A DNA stretch of 64,000 bases, from NCBI RefSeq assembly GCF_014644535.1, contig NZ_BMKW01000018.1, forward strand, positions 1 to 64,000. The letters run 5' to 3'. This document shows positions 37,636 through 43,069 of the stretch, in pieces (positions within the stretch are counted from its first letter, which is position 1; each line of letters starts with the position of its first letter). The notes beneath the pieces are model-generated. The model did not search any database, had not been told where the DNA came from, and was given only the letters and a program-made list of their open reading frames with translations. Source of the DNA: Neoroseomonas lacus. Its GTDB lineage: Bacteria > Pseudomonadota > Alphaproteobacteria > Acetobacterales > Acetobacteraceae. The translations under genes were made by a program, and so were the position numbers.

Positions 37636-38856
37636 TCAGCGTCGCCGGGCGATCGGGATGAGAGGCAGCACCAGCGCGGCGTTCACCACCGCTGCGCCGA
37701 ACAGCACCAGCAGCGTCCCGGACGGCCCCAGCCTGTACAGCAGCCAGGTCCCGAGCAGCGGCGCCACAGCCGTGGCCAGCAGCGTCGGCAGTGCGAGACG
37801 ACCCATCAGGATCGCGTAGCCCTCACGCCCGAACATCGCCAGCGGCACGGTCCCGCGCGCGATGGAGCGGATGCCGCTGCCCATGCCGTAGAGGATGATG
37901 CCAGCGGCCGCGACATCGCTGACACCCACCATGACCAGGATGCCAACCACCACCAGGACGGTGGACGCCACCAGGCTCCAGATCGGATGCGTCCGGCGGC
38001 CGAACACCATCTCCAGGATGCGTCCGCCGACCTGGCTGGGACCGATCAGCGCGCCGAGGCCGACGGCGGCGGCCAGCGTCAGACCCTGCGCCTGCAGCAG
38101 AGTGGGCAACTGCACGGCGATGACGGTCATTGTCGCATAGGCCAGGGTGAAGCCCGCCGCGAGGAGCAGGAATGGCAGGCGTTGATCCGCGCGCAGGCTG
38201 CCGGCGGCTGGCGCGCCCACGGTCTTCGGGACAAGTGCACTCGGCACCTCGCGCGGCAGGCCGAACAGATACAGCGGCAGCACCACGGCGGCATGAATCG
38301 CGGCATAGGCCAGGCAGGTGCCGCGCCAGCCCAGGGTCTCGGCAAGCACGGCCGTGAGCGGCCAACAGACGGTGCTGGCGAAGCCGCCGAACAGCGTGAC
38401 CTGGGTGATGGCCGGCCGGGCTTCCTCCCCATACAGCCGCCCCAGCGTCGAGAAGGCCGGGTCGTACAACCCCGCGCCCATGCCGGCACCGATCACGACC
38501 CAGCAGGCGACGAAGACTGGCAGTGTAGGGGCCAAGCCAAGGCCGATCAGGCCGATGCACAGCAGGATCGCGCTGGCGGCCAGCACGGGCCGGCCGCCAC
38601 GACGCTCAATAATATGGCCGATGCGGGGCGAGACGAGACCGGAGACCAGCAGGCCGACGGACAGCGCCCCGAATACCCAGGCGAGCGACCACCCGGTATC
38701 GGCCGCAATCGGGCCGGCCAGGAGCGACAGGAGGTAGTAGGACGATCCCCAGGCCAGGATCTGGGCGACGCCGATCGCCGACACGACCGTCCATCGCGGA
38801 CGCGGCGTGGCGGCTTCGGCCGCGCACTCTCGCCCAAGGCTGCGGGCGAGGCTCAC
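37636..38856 (-). CDS. MFS transporter, likely metalloid/anion exporter in the ars island
   Basis: A 406-residue 12-helix major facilitator. AIGVAQILAWGSSYYLLSLL opens helix 1; the loop 2-3 region reads SPRIGHIIERRGGRPVL. The start is GTG at 38856, overlapping the stop of the upstream oxidoreductase by 4 bp (GTGA), so the two are coupled. The frame stays open upstream, but that is the antisense-like reading of the other gene. Its coupling to a flavin oxidoreductase and its placement beside arsR/arsP-type genes suggest arsenite or organoarsenical efflux (ArsK- or ArsJ-like); this is inference, as MFS sequence alone does not show the cargo. Confidence 0.82.
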   Translation of the reverse strand: MSLARSLGRECAAEAATPRPRWTVVSAIGVAQILAWGSSYYLLSLLAGPIAADTGWSLAWVFGALSVGLLVSGLVSPRIGHIIERRGGRPVLAASAILLCIGLIGLGLAPTLPVFVACWVVIGAGMGAGLYDPAFSTLGRLYGEEARPAITQVTLFGGFASTVCWPLTAVLAETLGWRGTCLAYAAIHAAVVLPLYLFGLPREVPSALVPKTVGAPAAGSLRADQRLPFLLLAAGFTLAYATMTVIAVQLPTLLQAQGLTLAAAVGLGALIGPSQVGGRILEMVFGRRTHPIWSLVASTVLVVVGILVMVGVSDVAAAGIILYGMGSGIRSIARGTVPLAMFGREGYAILMGRLALPTLLATAVAPLLGTWLLYRLGPSGTLLVLFGAAVVNAALVLPLIPIARRR

Positions 38857-40250
38857 TCGGCGGGCTCTGCCGCGACGCGGGCCTGGTTCGCCCTGGACCC
38901 GCAGCACGGCGCATCGGCCGCGAGTTCCGGCTTCGGCGCGCAGCACGCGCCTTGCGGTGTCGCGGGCGTGCAGCAGGCGGCCGCCGCGGCAGGCGAGCGG
39001 TCGGTCGAGCAAACGCCGGTCTCCGGCAGCACCAGTTCAACCCGGCGGGCGGCCGCGACATCGCCCGCCAGGAAGGCGGCGATCGAGCGGACCTGCTCAT
39101 GGCCGGTCGCCAGCAGGAAGGTGGGCGCGCGGCCGTAGCTCTTCATGCCCGCGATATAGAAGCCCGTTTCCGGGTGGCGCAGTTCGGCTTCGCCATGCGG
39201 CCGGACCGTCCCGCAGGAATGCAGGTTGGGGTCGATCAGCGGCGCCAGTGCGGGTGTTGCCTCCACCGCGGGGTCAAGGCCAAGGCGGATTTCGCGCAGG
39301 AAGGAGAGGTCCGGCCGGAAGCCTGTCGCGACGATCATGCGATCGGCCTGCGCGGTCGTCACGCGACCGTCCTGCCGACCGGCGACGATGAGCGCGCCGT
39401 CCGCCGTCGTAATGCGATCGATCAGGAAGGGGGCAAGCGCGGTCACCGACCCGTCCTCGACGAGCGCCTGCGCTCGCGCGCCGAGTTCGCCGCGCTGCGT
39501 CAGCCCGTCGCGCGCACCGCCCCCGAAATTGACCGCGCCGAGTGGGCGGCGGAAGGCCCACAGGATCCGCGTGCCGGGTGCACTCCTTGCCAAGGCGACG
39601 AGGTCGAGCACCGCATTCATCGCCGAATGTCCGGCGCCGACGACGAGCGTCGCGCGGCCGGCATAGGCACTGCGATCAGCGCCGAGTACGTCGGGGATGC
39701 CGTAGGCGATGCGGTCGGCCTGGGCGATTTCGCCTGGCGCCGGCATGCCGTGGCTGCCCGCCGGGTTCGGTGCGTGCCAAGTGCCCGAACAGTCGATGAC
39801 GGCGCGCGCCTCGATCGCCTGGATGCCGCAGCAGGTCTCGACATGCAGGACGAACGGGGCGGCGTCGCGCCCATCGCCGTCGTGCAGGCGGCCGAAATCA
39901 CGGCGCGCGACGCCGACCACGCGCGCGCCGGTGCGGATACGCCCGCGCAGGGCGGCCGTGGCGGCGAGCGGCGCAAGGTAGCGATCCAGGATGTCGCCGC
40001 CGGTCGGATAGGCATCAGGGTCGGGCGCGACCCAGCCTTCGGCTGCGAGCAAGGTGCGCGCGGCGGCATCCGTGTTGAAGGCCCAGGGCGAGAACATGCG
40101 CACATGCCGCCAGGCGCGGACCGCGTGGCCGACCTCGGCACCGGCCTCCAGCACCAGCGGCTCTACCGCGCGCGCGAGCAATTGCGCGGCGGCGGCGAGG
40201 CCGACCGGGCCGGCACCAATGACCGCAACGGGGAGAGGGGATTGGGTCAT
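38853..40250 (-). CDS. FAD-dependent oxidoreductase with Cys-Cys-rich C-terminal tail (ArsO-like)
   Basis: A 465-residue flavoprotein monooxygenase-like protein. FAD dinucleotide fold AVIGAGPVGLAAAAQLLA near residue 10, a second NAD(P) fold LVVGAGHSAMNAVLDLV near 205, and ATGFRPDLSFLREI near 330. After residue ~405 comes an added tail with Cys414 and Cys pairs at 426-427, 436-437 and 449-450. ArsO-type enzymes occur in ars operons, and vicinal cysteines bind trivalent arsenic, so redox chemistry on a metalloid is a plausible role. The ATG at 40250 has AGGAAA just upstream. Confidence 0.85.
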   Translation of the reverse strand: MTQSPLPVAVIGAGPVGLAAAAQLLARAVEPLVLEAGAEVGHAVRAWRHVRMFSPWAFNTDAAARTLLAAEGWVAPDPDAYPTGGDILDRYLAPLAATAALRGRIRTGARVVGVARRDFGRLHDGDGRDAAPFVLHVETCCGIQAIEARAVIDCSGTWHAPNPAGSHGMPAPGEIAQADRIAYGIPDVLGADRSAYAGRATLVVGAGHSAMNAVLDLVALARSAPGTRILWAFRRPLGAVNFGGGARDGLTQRGELGARAQALVEDGSVTALAPFLIDRITTADGALIVAGRQDGRVTTAQADRMIVATGFRPDLSFLREIRLGLDPAVEATPALAPLIDPNLHSCGTVRPHGEAELRHPETGFYIAGMKSYGRAPTFLLATGHEQVRSIAAFLAGDVAAARRVELVLPETGVCSTDRSPAAAAACCTPATPQGACCAPKPELAADAPCCGSRANQARVAAEPAE

Positions 40251-40261
40251 CGCTTTCCTCA

Positions 40262-40282
40262 TTGATGCATAGATGATTGATG
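40262..40282. promoter_or_regulatory. Candidate PadR-type site between padR and the oxidoreductase gene
   Basis: TTGATG at 40262-40267 and again at 40277-40282, with ATGCAT nearby, in an AT-rich patch just upstream of the oxidoreductase ATG. The same TTGATG and ATGCAT words occur in the palindrome at 40747-40769, so one regulator may bind both. Confidence 0.4.
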
Positions 40283-40315
40283 TATATGCGCGCGGAAAAA
40301 TGGGCCGGTCTTGCC

Positions 40316-40732
40316 TCAGCACTTCGTCTTGCAGGCGCCGGCGCGGTCGGCCGCCGCGAAGGCGCGGCCGGTGTCCTGCAGGGCGGCGGTCGCATCCATC
40401 CAGGCATCGAGCGCCACGCGGAACGCGCTGCGGCCCGCATCGGTGAGTTCATAGACGCGGCGTTGGCGCCCCTGAACGACCTCCTCGGTCACGGTCAGGA
40501 ATCCGCCAGCCTCGAACTCCCGCAGCACCGGATAGATGGTGCCCTCCGTGGGCGAGCAGCAGCCGCCGGTTACCCGATCGACCGCGCGCGCCACGTCGTA
40601 GCCGTGCATCGGCCCCTCATGCAGGACACGCAGGATGAAGAACTTCGACAGGCCCATCTTGATCGTGCCCGCCCAATAGTCGCGGGAGGCGAAGTCAACA
40701 CGGGGTACGGGAACGGAGCGGAGGGGCTTCAT
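40316..40732 (-). CDS. PadR-family regulator with vicinal cysteines
   Basis: A 138-residue PadR protein: winged helix at residues ~25-100 (GLSKFFILRVLHEGPMHGYDVARA, then EGTIYPVLREFEAGGFL) and a C-terminal dimer helix. In the recognition region it has Cys58-Cys59 (TGGCCSPTEG), and the last residues are CKTKC (134, 138). Such cysteines could sense soft metals or trivalent arsenic by thiol binding; this is inference. A TTG codon lies 9 bp upstream in frame, but the ATG at 40732 is used. It heads the left arm of the island. Confidence 0.85.
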   Translation of the reverse strand: MKPLRSVPVPRVDFASRDYWAGTIKMGLSKFFILRVLHEGPMHGYDVARAVDRVTGGCCSPTEGTIYPVLREFEAGGFLTVTEEVVQGRQRRVYELTDAGRSAFRVALDAWMDATAALQDTGRAFAAADRAGACKTKC

Positions 40733-40746
40733 ACCTTCCAAATATA

Positions 40747-40769
40747 CCTTGATGGTCGATGCATCAAGG
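40747..40769. promoter_or_regulatory. Inverted repeat at the padR promoter
   Basis: CCTTGATG and its exact reverse complement CATCAAGG flank a 7-bp spacer (GTCGATG). It lies 15 bp upstream of the padR ATG, within the likely promoter. PadR regulators bind dyads of this sort, so autorepression is plausible. Confidence 0.6.
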
Positions 40770-41031
40770 GGAATATCCTATGATGCGATAGCGTTTGATC
40801 CAAAGGGTCCCAGGCTTGTCGGGCCGTCAAGGCCCGGTCCCATGAACCCCCCCCCCGGCCGCGATCGGCGCGGGTATCCTGGTTTCCGCCCCGGCCGCGG
40901 ATCATTTCCATGGCGTCGTCGGAGCGCGAACTGGGCAGGCGGCGATCCTGCGAGGCCTGCCGCATCGACGCCCGGATTGACAGGCGCAGCTCATAAATGC
41001 GTATATGCGGATGAACGGATGCGCCGCCGCC

Positions 41032-41328
41032 ATGAACGATGCCGTCGAACTCCTCGCCGCCCTGGCCGACCCGACCCGCCTTGCCGCATTGCGGCTGCTG
41101 CGTGACTCGCACGAGCACTGCGTCTGCGAACTGATGGAACGGCTCGGCGCCAGCCAGTCGCGCATGTCCCGCCACATGGCGACGCTGCGCCATGCCGGCC
41201 TCGTGGTGGATCGTCGCGACGCGCAATGGGTGCGCTACCGGCTGAACCCCAAGCTGGCGCCCGAGGCGCGGCGCCTGCTTGATGCCGCCCTCGACCTACG
41301 CGCCGCCCCAGAAAGGAACGCCGCATGA
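41032..41328 (+). CDS. ArsR/SmtB-family metalloid-sensing repressor
   Basis: A 98-residue ArsR protein. ALADPTRLAALRLL opens the winged helix; the metalloid-binding pair Cys30 and Cys32 is in EHCVCELMERLGASQSRMSR, the classic CVC motif. It would release DNA when trivalent arsenic or antimony binds. ATGs at 41005 and 41011 are also in frame, but 41032 matches the usual ArsR N-terminus. ATGCG repeats just before it (40998-41009) may belong to the operator. Its stop overlaps the permease start. Confidence 0.92.
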   Translation: MNDAVELLAALADPTRLAALRLLRDSHEHCVCELMERLGASQSRMSRHMATLRHAGLVVDRRDAQWVRYRLNPKLAPEARRLLDAALDLRAAPERNAA

Positions 41329-42368
41329 GCGCAACCACCGAACGCGCCCCCTCGACGCTGCCCTGGGTCGCGGGCATGGCGGCCGGGATCGCAGCCTGGG
41401 CCGGCCTGTACAGCTTGCTCGTCCCCTTCTCGAACTGGCTCGTGTCGTTGCTGCCGGTCGATCGGCAATCGCAATTGGGCGAGGCCATCGCATTCTTCTT
41501 CTATGACGTGCCGAAGATGCTGCTGCTGCTCACGCTCGTGGTCTTCGCCATGGGCGTGGTGCGCAGCTTCTTCTCGCCCGAACGCACCCGAGCGATGCTT
41601 GCCGGCAAGCACGAGGGAATCGGCAACGCGATGGCCGCCTCGCTCGGCATCGTCACGCCCTTCTGTTCCTGCTCGGCGGTGCCGTTGTTCATCGGCTTCG
41701 TCTCGGCGGGCGTGCCCCTCGGCGTCACCTTCTCCTTTCTGATCGCCGCACCCATGGTGAACGAGGTGGCGCTCGGCCTGCTCTTCGTTCTGCTGGGCTG
41801 GCAGGTCGCGCTGACCTATCTCGCCTTCGGCCTTGCCATCGCCATCGTCGCCGGCTGGGTGATCGGGAAGCTGAAGCTGGAGGGCTGGCTCGAGCCCTGG
41901 GTGCTGAAGATCCACGCCGGCGCCGTGGACCTGCCCGAGGCGACCACCACCTGGCCTGACCGCATCCGTGCCGGGCTGGACGCGGTGCGAGAGATCGTCG
42001 GCCGCGTCTGGTACTGGATCATCGCCGGCATCGCCGCCGGCGCCCTCATCCATGGCTACGCGCCGGAGGAGTTGCTCGCCTCCATCATGGGCAAGGACGC
42101 CTGGTGGTCGGTGCCCGCGGCCGTGCTCATCGGCATCCCGATGTATTCGAACGCCGCCGGCATCATTCCGGTGGTCGAGGCGCTGCTCGGCAAGGGTGCG
42201 GCGCTCGGCACCGTGCTGGCCTTCATGATGAGCGTGATCGCGCTGTCGCTGCCGGAGATGATCATCCTGCGCAAGGTGCTGTCGGTGAAGCTTATCGCGG
42301 TGTTCGTGGCCGTGGTCGGCAGCGGCATCCTCGCCGTGGGCTTCCTGTTCAACCTGCTGTTCGCCTGA
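41325..42368 (+). CDS. ArsP-type organoarsenical/metal permease
   Basis: A 347-residue permease of the PF03773 family with about eight membrane helices in two halves. The hallmark TPFCSCSAVPLFIGF (Cys114, Cys116) sits in one half, and GIPMYSNAAGIIP in the other. ArsP proteins expel trivalent methyl- or aromatic arsenicals; related members have been called Cu/Zn or sulfite permeases. The ATG overlaps the arsR stop by 4 bp, so the two form an operon. Arsenical efflux is the best guess given the partners. Confidence 0.9.
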   Translation: MSATTERAPSTLPWVAGMAAGIAAWAGLYSLLVPFSNWLVSLLPVDRQSQLGEAIAFFFYDVPKMLLLLTLVVFAMGVVRSFFSPERTRAMLAGKHEGIGNAMAASLGIVTPFCSCSAVPLFIGFVSAGVPLGVTFSFLIAAPMVNEVALGLLFVLLGWQVALTYLAFGLAIAIVAGWVIGKLKLEGWLEPWVLKIHAGAVDLPEATTTWPDRIRAGLDAVREIVGRVWYWIIAGIAAGALIHGYAPEELLASIMGKDAWWSVPAAVLIGIPMYSNAAGIIPVVEALLGKGAALGTVLAFMMSVIALSLPEMIILRKVLSVKLIAVFVAVVGSGILAVGFLFNLLFA

Positions 42369-42380
42369 GGAGGGCGTGTG

Positions 42381-42614
42381 ATGAAGGACGTGAAGGTGCT
42401 CGGGCCGGGCTGCGCCAGGTGCAAGGCGACCACCGAGGTGATCGCCGCGGTGGTGAAGGACACCGGCGCCGCGGTGACGCTCGGCAAGGTCGAGGACATG
42501 CGCGAGATCGTGGGCTACGGCGTGATGTCCACCCCCGCCGTGGTGGTGGACGGCAAGGTGGTGCATGCCGGCTCCGTGCCGGGCCGTGCGATGGTCGAGG
42601 GCTGGCTGAAATGA
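42381..42614 (+). CDS. Thioredoxin-like small redox-active disulfide protein
   Basis: A 77-residue thioredoxin-fold protein with the redox motif Cys11-Ala-Arg-Cys14 (GPGCARC) and a cis-Pro loop VMSTPAVVVDGKV near residue 50. Such proteins are commonly encoded beside ArsP-type permeases. It may deliver electrons or the metalloid to the permease or the rhodanese. AGGAGG precedes the ATG at 42381; a GTG three bases earlier is the alternative. The stop overlaps the next start. Confidence 0.9.
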   Translation: MKDVKVLGPGCARCKATTEVIAAVVKDTGAAVTLGKVEDMREIVGYGVMSTPAVVVDGKVVHAGSVPGRAMVEGWLK

Positions 42615-43069
42615 GTGCACCCGCGAGAAAGGACCTCCCCGAGGCCCGCGAGGTCTGCCCGACGACCTCCCGCCGCCTGTTGGCCGAAGGCGCATTGCTG
42701 GTCGATGTGCGGGAAGCGGCGGAGGTGAACCAACGCGCTTTCGCGGGGTGCGAGCAGCTGCGCATTCCGCTCAGCGAGTTCGAACATCGCTGGGCCGAGA
42801 TCCCGCGCGACCGGGACGTGATTCTCGCCTGCGCGGTCGGGCAGCGGAGCCTGAAGGCCACCTATTACCTGATGTACCAGGGCTATGACCGGGTGATGAA
42901 CATGCAGCACGGGCTGCAACGCTGGGCCGCGCGCGGCTTCCCCGTGACCGGCGATGCCGTGGGCGCGCCGATGGCGGCGGACGGCTGTTGCGGCGGCGCC
43001 GAGCCAGCCACCGAGGCGTCGGCCTGCTGTGATACCGCGAAGGCGCCCGCCTCGGGCTGCTGTTGCTGA
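42611..43069 (+). CDS. Rhodanese-domain protein with Cys-rich tail
   Basis: A 152-residue protein. Residues ~15-115 form a rhodanese domain with catalytic Cys74 in LACAVGQRS. The tail after residue 120 carries Cys pairs at 126-127 and 139-140 and a terminal Cys150-151-152. Rhodaneses move sulfane sulfur; the added thiols look suited to binding a soft metalloid. It is the last gene of the arsR arm and overlaps the upstream gene by 4 bp. The tail is similar in kind to that of the divergent oxidoreductase. Confidence 0.9.
   Translation: MSAPARKDLPEAREVCPTTSRRLLAEGALLVDVREAAEVNQRAFAGCEQLRIPLSEFEHRWAEIPRDRDVILACAVGQRSLKATYYLMYQGYDRVMNMQHGLQRWAARGFPVTGDAVGAPMAADGCCGGAEPATEASACCDTAKAPASGCCC

Follow-up and report, generated by a model that had tools for sequence, protein, structure and literature searches.

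Two enzymes of unrelated fold, a flavoprotein (OXR) and a rhodanese (RHO), end in tails rich in vicinal cysteines (Cys-Cys, hereafter CC) within a single metalloid-resistance island of Neoroseomonas lacus, and these tails are not a product of chance. The island occupies positions 37636-43069 of the window, that is, the whole 64,000-nucleotide stretch analysed here (contig NZ_BMKW01000018.1, positions 1 to 64,000), taken from a contig 82 kb long in a 97%-complete genome of 6.4 Mb. It consists of two operons arranged head to head: operon B on the minus strand, with padR (40732-40316), OXR (40250-38853) and an MFS transporter gene (38856-37636), and operon A on the plus strand, with arsR, the gene for an ArsP_1 permease, an ArsE-like thioredoxin gene and RHO. 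In other genomes the two operons mostly travel apart. On balance we favour, with some reserve, a reading in which operon B would be a PadR-sensed oxidation and export system whose OXR tail is an arm that feeds the flavin, and operon A a system in which the ArsP_1 permease is assisted by the thioredoxin and the RHO arm. The tailed enzymes and their cysteines are located as follows.

38853..40250, minus strand: OXR, a 465-residue FAD/NAD(P) flavoprotein of the FMO/Pyr_redox_3 kind (Pfam Pyr_redox_3, 54 bits)
38856..39008, minus strand: OXR C-terminal tail, residues 415-465, with Cys pairs 426-427, 436-437 and 449-450
39009..39011, minus strand: codon of OXR C414 (ETGVC), matched in 77/77 family frames
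39213..39215, minus strand: codon of OXR C346, in the HSCGTVRPHG loop, matched in 77/77 family frames
42611..43069, plus strand: RHO, a single-domain rhodanese with active loop C74-AVGQRS (Pfam Rhodanese, 40.2 bits against a threshold of 22.2)
42956..43066, plus strand: RHO C-terminal tail, residues 116-152, with CC, CC and CCC-COOH

Translated from the ATG at 40250 (minus strand), OXR has cysteines at residues 140, 141, 154, 346 and 414 and at the three tail pairs, 426-427, 436-437 and 449-450. RHO (152 residues, from the ATG at 42611 on the plus strand) has them at 16, 47, 74, 126-127, 139-140 and 150-152, and the PadR regulator (138 residues) has C58-C59, C134 and C138, so spaced that its C-terminus reads CKTKC. 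An earlier, sequence-only reading of this DNA had given the cysteine positions of the oxidoreductase, the rhodanese and PadR correctly to the residue, and the CVC motif of ArsR and the ArsP-type permease that it named are borne out as well (HCVC is present, and Pfam ArsP_1 is matched at 227 bits). When the same number of cysteines was placed at random in each protein, none of 200,000 draws gave OXR three or more CC runs in its final 45 residues, and 4 of 200,000 gave RHO as many in its final 30. CC in the last 60 residues was found in none of 46 genes elsewhere in the window and none of 40 in seven control loci, all called by a crude method based on G+C at third codon positions that detected OXR and missed RHO and the thioredoxin gene. 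Greedy gene calling, whose counts include some duplicate loci and spurious frames, counted two or more CC runs within the 60 C-terminal residues for 70/91 OXR, 5/8 RHO and 22/1538 other open reading frames, several of the latter being ArsR-like or ArsD-like proteins by eye. The random placement of cysteines and the gene-wide CC counts together rule out chance composition as the source of the tails.

The OXR tail recurs in a large family. The named OXR loci on which the following counts rest are the best 80 of at least 589 from a genome scan; closed frames were obtained from 77 of them (L133, L134 and L138 were dropped), 51 of which are contained in A2. These loci span Proteobacteria, Chloroflexi, Actinobacteria, Firmicutes and one metagenome-assembled genome (MAG) of Gemmatimonadetes, and the nearest named match to the window OXR comes from an Acetobacteraceae MAG (89%), followed by Neoroseomonas and Roseomonas (80-83%). 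Compared with the window, C346 and C414 are matched in 100% of the 77 frames, C426/C427 in 96%, C437 in 87%, C436 in 82% and C450 in 69%; non-Cys tail positions are matched in 22%, against 58% for the body. Most tail cysteines are thus retained in an otherwise fast-changing tail, and the two body cysteines and the first tail pair are, in the aligned frames, as fixed as catalytic residues. A CC run is present in the tail of 74 of the 77 frames (no run in 3, one in 9, two in 46, three in 17 and four in 2). Sampling by genome gives a similar picture: the 146 relatives contain 33 full-length OXR places, window included, and one or more tail CC runs occur in 30 of the other 32. Across the phylum, 14 of 299 evenly drawn genomes, window included, have OXR (identity of at least 45%), with a CC tail in 12/12 of those read; a thirteenth, G129, is counted among the relatives.

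The neighbours of OXR point to metalloids. In the flanks of the 80 named loci there is an arsenic-specific gene at 48, ArsR or PadR at 69, one or the other kind at 72, and an MFS gene at 47. A plasmid survey matched 126 records, of which 40 were listed and 10 read, two of these being unannotated; 5 of the 8 annotated regions have arsenic genes (arsC, acr3, arsH, arsN1, arsDA or arsO). Eight of the 80 loci have no arsenic, ArsR or PadR neighbour, detection there being weak owing to mostly proteobacterial references and some short contigs; a CC run is found in all 7 that could be read, and thus the OXR tail belongs to the family rather than to the neighbourhood.

Several variants of OXR were also seen. 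The OXR of L037/L098 and of L099, 83-85% identical to that of the window, have a different tail that bears cysteines without CC. Those of L032, L033, L034, L053, L054 and L057 have an extra N-terminal start, M(T/S)SCCS, with a Cys pair there too. A distinct tail type, CCGGPA-x-ACC-x-D-x-AK-x-GCGC, occurs in L111, L118, L193 and others, and GCGC is found in 37 of the 77 named frames, mostly from Hyphomicrobiales by eye. At L064 (7893-8525, minus strand), a frame that may be a gene remnant opens with residues that look unrelated and continues with just the C-terminal portion of OXR, Cys tail included.

The most serious competitor of a delivering arm is a passive, metallothionein-like sink, in which the tethered CC repeats would shield the enzyme by buffering trivalent metalloid (or Hg, Cd or Zn) and would hand nothing on to the active site. 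The OXR tails are rich in A, G, C, S and P, have low confidence in the structure model and vary in their number of Cys pairs; CC tails also sit on unrelated active sites (ArsI, RHO and OXR), and some plasmid neighbours of OXR are chromate, nickel or copper genes, all of which suits a sink. In a mere sink the positions of the cysteines should be free to vary. Against this, C414 and 426-427 are near-invariant, in contrast to the drifting third pair, and we consider a sink rather unlikely.

By profile similarity to solved members, OXR belongs with the FMO-like flavin-dependent monooxygenases. Its top PDB profile match is 7a76 (3.5e-20), named a thioredoxin reductase, the next ones are the flavin monooxygenases 8z12-8z17, 4usr, 4c5o and 4a9w (E-values from 8e-14 to 3e-11), and YpdA-type reductases are also among the matches. 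ArsO is likewise an FAD/NAD(P)H enzyme of ars operons, but OXR does not exceed its cut-off (NF040505, 41.8 bits against 425, over residues 8-223 only), and the score rules out that OXR is ArsO; the Streptomyces plasmid pSSFR1 has ArsO and an OXR-MFS pair separately. ArsV and ArsW are reportedly a flavin monooxygenase and a transporter in ars operons, a combination that the OXR-MFS pairing recalls. OXR may be the published ArsV, and such an identity would lower its novelty. The AlphaFold model of OXR has a mean predicted local distance difference test score (pLDDT) of 85 and a predicted template modelling score of 0.83, with a confident core; residues 411-465 have pLDDT below 50, and the tail is read as disordered from this low model confidence.

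A disordered tail of this kind invites comparison with MerA, whose flexible C-terminal Cys pair delivers Hg(II) to the active site according to an excerpt of one source (PMC10587081). OXR resembles MerA as a flavoprotein of a resistance operon with a C-terminal Cys pair (C426/C427, 96% conserved) on a segment that is probably flexible, given its pLDDT below 50. It differs in being monooxygenase-like, in having a tail of about 50 residues that mostly bears one to four CC runs, and in the absence of the MerA-type N-terminal redox Cys pair: of its body cysteines (140, 141, 154, 346 and 414) only 346 and 414 are conserved, and hence OXR has no conserved N-terminal redox-active disulfide. For want of that disulfide, OXR was rejected as a MerA or thioredoxin-reductase homologue with the same chemistry.

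High-molecular-weight thioredoxin reductase is the model for a further alternative, in which the OXR tail would be a redox arm, its Cys pairs being reduced by the flavin and in turn reducing an arsenical, ArsC or thioredoxin. This would suit an FAD/NAD(P)H enzyme whose C-terminal arm carries Cys pairs, the trxB or arsC gene beside OXR in some loci, and a best PDB match named thioredoxin reductase together with similarity to TRX_reduct and YpdA, but the missing disulfide and the monooxygenases that follow in the PDB matches make it improbable.

Close orthologues of RHO are rare, being found in 2 of 146 relatives and 4 of 398 genomes of the phylum (its own genome included in both). Of about 100 RHO places in relatives, 30 were taken as loci, and a plasmid survey matched 14 records, of which 8 were read; the 33 RHO loci read comprise 5 orthologues, 27 distant rhodaneses and one, L093, with no match. 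Ten distinct orthologues are known from these surveys: those of the window, G003, G524, G362, G404, NT-26, Cereibacter azotoformans, Rhodobacter capsulatus, Comamonas and Citrobacter, with a match in NT-25 that scores the same as NT-26. Each of the ten has a tail with one or more CC and adjoins a permease gene and a thioredoxin gene, and several of their loci also have acr3, arsC, arsJ or arsDA. In the 27 distant rhodaneses the tail lacks CC, and flanks of up to 1.5 kb show no match to ArsP_1 or thioredoxin; a distant plasmid rhodanese of Thermomicrobium has no CC tail either. Since the orthologues form one group, the RHO tail represents one evolutionary event. RHO itself has a rhodanese domain with its catalytic Cys in a CxxGxR loop, as expected of a single-domain rhodanese, and all 9 sequences in the alignment have the CxxGxRS form of the loop, that motif having served to select 2 of them (the tail of G524 was read separately, outside this alignment). 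We take a six-residue loop of this kind to be of the sulfurtransferase type rather than of the Cdc25/Acr2 type of arsenate reductase, and by this rule of loop length RHO was set aside as an Acr2-type enzyme.

The same loop would suit sulfur transfer to arsenic by RHO, with thioarsenicals then handed along the tails among OXR, RHO and the exporter. We doubt this strongly: the two operons rarely co-occur (at 2 of 33 OXR places), which makes OXR-RHO transfer unlikely as a conserved role. A single joint pathway of the two operons was rejected on the same count, an ArsP_1 gene being in the flank of only 2 of the 33 full-length OXR places in the 146 relatives; in G003, RHO and OXR lie on different contigs. 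The sequence-only reading had proposed a metalloid-resistance island whose thiol tails were added for this neighbourhood and hand a metalloid from one tailed enzyme to the other. Its first part stands, with tails on all ten RHO orthologues and an arsenic gene, ArsR or PadR near 72 of 80 OXR. The addition of tails for this neighbourhood finds no support, given the 96% conservation of C426/C427 across the OXR family, and neither does the hand-over, given the rarity of ArsP_1 near OXR and the separate contigs of G003. The comparison it had called for, with homologues outside such a neighbourhood, agrees with its expectation for RHO (27/27 distant rhodaneses without CC) and goes the other way for OXR (7/7 with CC), where the weak detection of neighbours at those loci keeps it from being decisive.

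The third cysteine-bearing protein of the island is the regulator of operon B, with two predicted operators.

40316..40732, minus strand: PadR regulator with C58-C59 and C-terminal CKTKC (Pfam PadR, 71.8 bits)
40742..40767, minus strand: predicted PadR operator upstream of padR (18/18 specified bases)
40262..40287, plus strand: predicted PadR operator upstream of OXR (15/18 specified bases)

PadR clears the PF03551 gathering score (71.8 bits against 27). Of the 127 OXR loci examined, 29 have a PadR match; GCCSP, which contains C58-C59, is kept in each of the 25 distinct orthologues, along with one or more Cys among the last 14 residues. The operator-like site, TTGATGCAT-N7-CAAGGTATA, lies upstream of padR (18/18) and, inverted, upstream of OXR (15/18), and scores this high were reached by 0 of 300 shuffles. 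Of 26 loci, window included and many of them closely related, 24 have it upstream of padR and 20 upstream of OXR at a score of at least 12/18; for some of the weaker sites, shuffles reached the score in up to 27 of 300. In other species the same OXR operon is preceded by ArsR, and the ArsR proteins in PadR's place have DCCKGRPE(V/I)C segments. Because ArsR replaces PadR before the operon elsewhere, PadR is best taken for a substitute metalloid sensor.

The remaining genes of the island encode the transporters, the regulator of operon A and its thioredoxin.

37636..38856, minus strand: MFS transporter (Pfam MFS_1), with a 4-base overlap with the OXR stop
41005..41328, plus strand (start possibly 41032): ArsR/SmtB regulator with CVC motif (NCBIfam HTH_metalloreg, 93 bits, cut-off 55)
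41325..42368, plus strand: ArsP_1 permease (PF03773, 227.4 bits, gathering score 32.3)
42381..42614, plus strand: small thioredoxin-like protein with CARC (TIGR00412 'MTH895/ArsE family', 93.8 bits, cut-off 62)

The best NCBIfam match of the MFS protein, ArsK (NF033733), stays under its cut-off (238 bits against 400). The island is flanked by ordinary genes (an MR/MLE enolase-type enzyme, an EamA transporter, NIPSNAP, SBP_bac_5 and TctC), and its GC content is unremarkable within the window. Elsewhere in the host genome, on a separate contig, there is an ACR3 gene; no ArsM exceeds its cut-off (the best reaches 62 bits against 263) and a profile search found no ArsI, and on these grounds a methylation cycle within the same genome was rejected. 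Hence, methylated arsenic, if it is a substrate, would come from outside.

In the reading that we favour, PadR would act as a thiol sensor of trivalent metalloid, repressing padR and the OXR-MFS pair from a shared operator. OXR would be an FAD/NAD(P)H flavin monooxygenase for which As(III), Sb(III) or methyl-As(III) is the substrate and its pentavalent counterpart the product, one or the other being exported by the MFS protein. The disordered OXR tail may serve as a vicinal-thiol arm that captures the trivalent metalloid and, together with the invariant C346 and C414, would bring it to the flavin, as MerA does with Hg(II). RHO would carry a separately evolved thiol arm and, together with the ArsE-like thioredoxin, may assist the ArsP_1 permease; the simplest role would be to scavenge or donate trivalent arsenicals. 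Several observations weigh against this reading. The operator consensus was derived from the window's own site and close relatives, and the conservation of the OXR cysteines partly reflects common descent. In addition, C449 is matched in only 12% of the 77 frames, the length of the tail drifts, and OXR without CC exist (L037/L098, on one contig, L099, L059 and L152, which has an N stretch). The C346 loop is only moderately confident in the model, with a block mean pLDDT of 63. Three of the 8 plasmid OXR regions have only PadR or ArsR, with chromate/nickel, copper or no metal genes, and in Cereibacter sphaeroides an operon A of the same gene order has a shortened, tail-less RHO (L190, 5992-6309).

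Similar tails occur on other arsenic proteins. ArsI (NF041414) exceeds its cut-off at 18 places in relatives, 17 of which were taken as loci, and in 15 of the 17 a CC follows the lyase domain; in L231 the CC precedes a fused ArsC-like stretch. The tail of the G052 ArsI matches that of the window OXR in 74 of 91 aligned DNA columns (81%), which suggests tail transfer between unrelated genes. The C-terminus of an ArsD of Comamonas reads GGCCSGSRCC. It is tempting, if still tentative, to propose that C-terminal vicinal-thiol arms are a recurrent and exchangeable accessory of bacterial arsenic enzymes on unrelated folds (the FMO-like flavoprotein, the rhodanese and ArsI; also ArsD and ArsR), which may have moved between genes at least once and may be a common means to catch or present trivalent metalloid, with a PadR-type sensor (Cys pair plus C-terminal Cys) replacing ArsR. 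An ArsI lyase whose tail is 81% identical to that of OXR at the DNA level lies at L065 (6903-7403, minus strand), and its neighbours are, by eye, ArsR, two ArsC, ACR3 and ArsH-like genes.

Cysteine-bearing segments have been described in other metalloid systems, which are cited here from excerpts. ArsD has C-terminal vicinal Cys pairs (PMC4562236) and is thus like OXR and RHO an arsenic protein with C-terminal CC, but as described there it is a small chaperone/repressor without an enzyme domain. In AfArsR a three-Cys segment is disordered as a free peptide and ordered on binding As(III) (PMC11212059); it is a similarly short Cys-bearing segment, but in the portion cited it is the sensing site of a regulator and not the tail of an enzyme. 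The SAO system includes SaoC, a Cys-Cys-COOH (seleno)protein (PMC13188914), and judging from the excerpt shares with the island a terminal Cys-Cys in an organometal-resistance operon. The window permease resembles SaoE (NF040736), but at 120.4 bits against 325 it is below the cut-off, and no other SAO family is among the NCBIfam matches of the island. Among the top-listed matches from open-licence PMC articles, none mentions in its title or abstract opening such tails on these enzymes or a PadR arsenic sensor, which is weak evidence of absence.

If the favoured reading is true, a flavoprotein family of several phyla feeds arsenic or antimony to its flavin by means of a disordered Cys arm and two invariant body cysteines, which would extend a tactic like that of MerA to another class of enzyme. 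One kind of arm would then have arisen by convergence in arsenic enzymes of unrelated fold and occasionally been swapped among them, and PadR would add a regulator family to the known sensors of trivalent metalloids.

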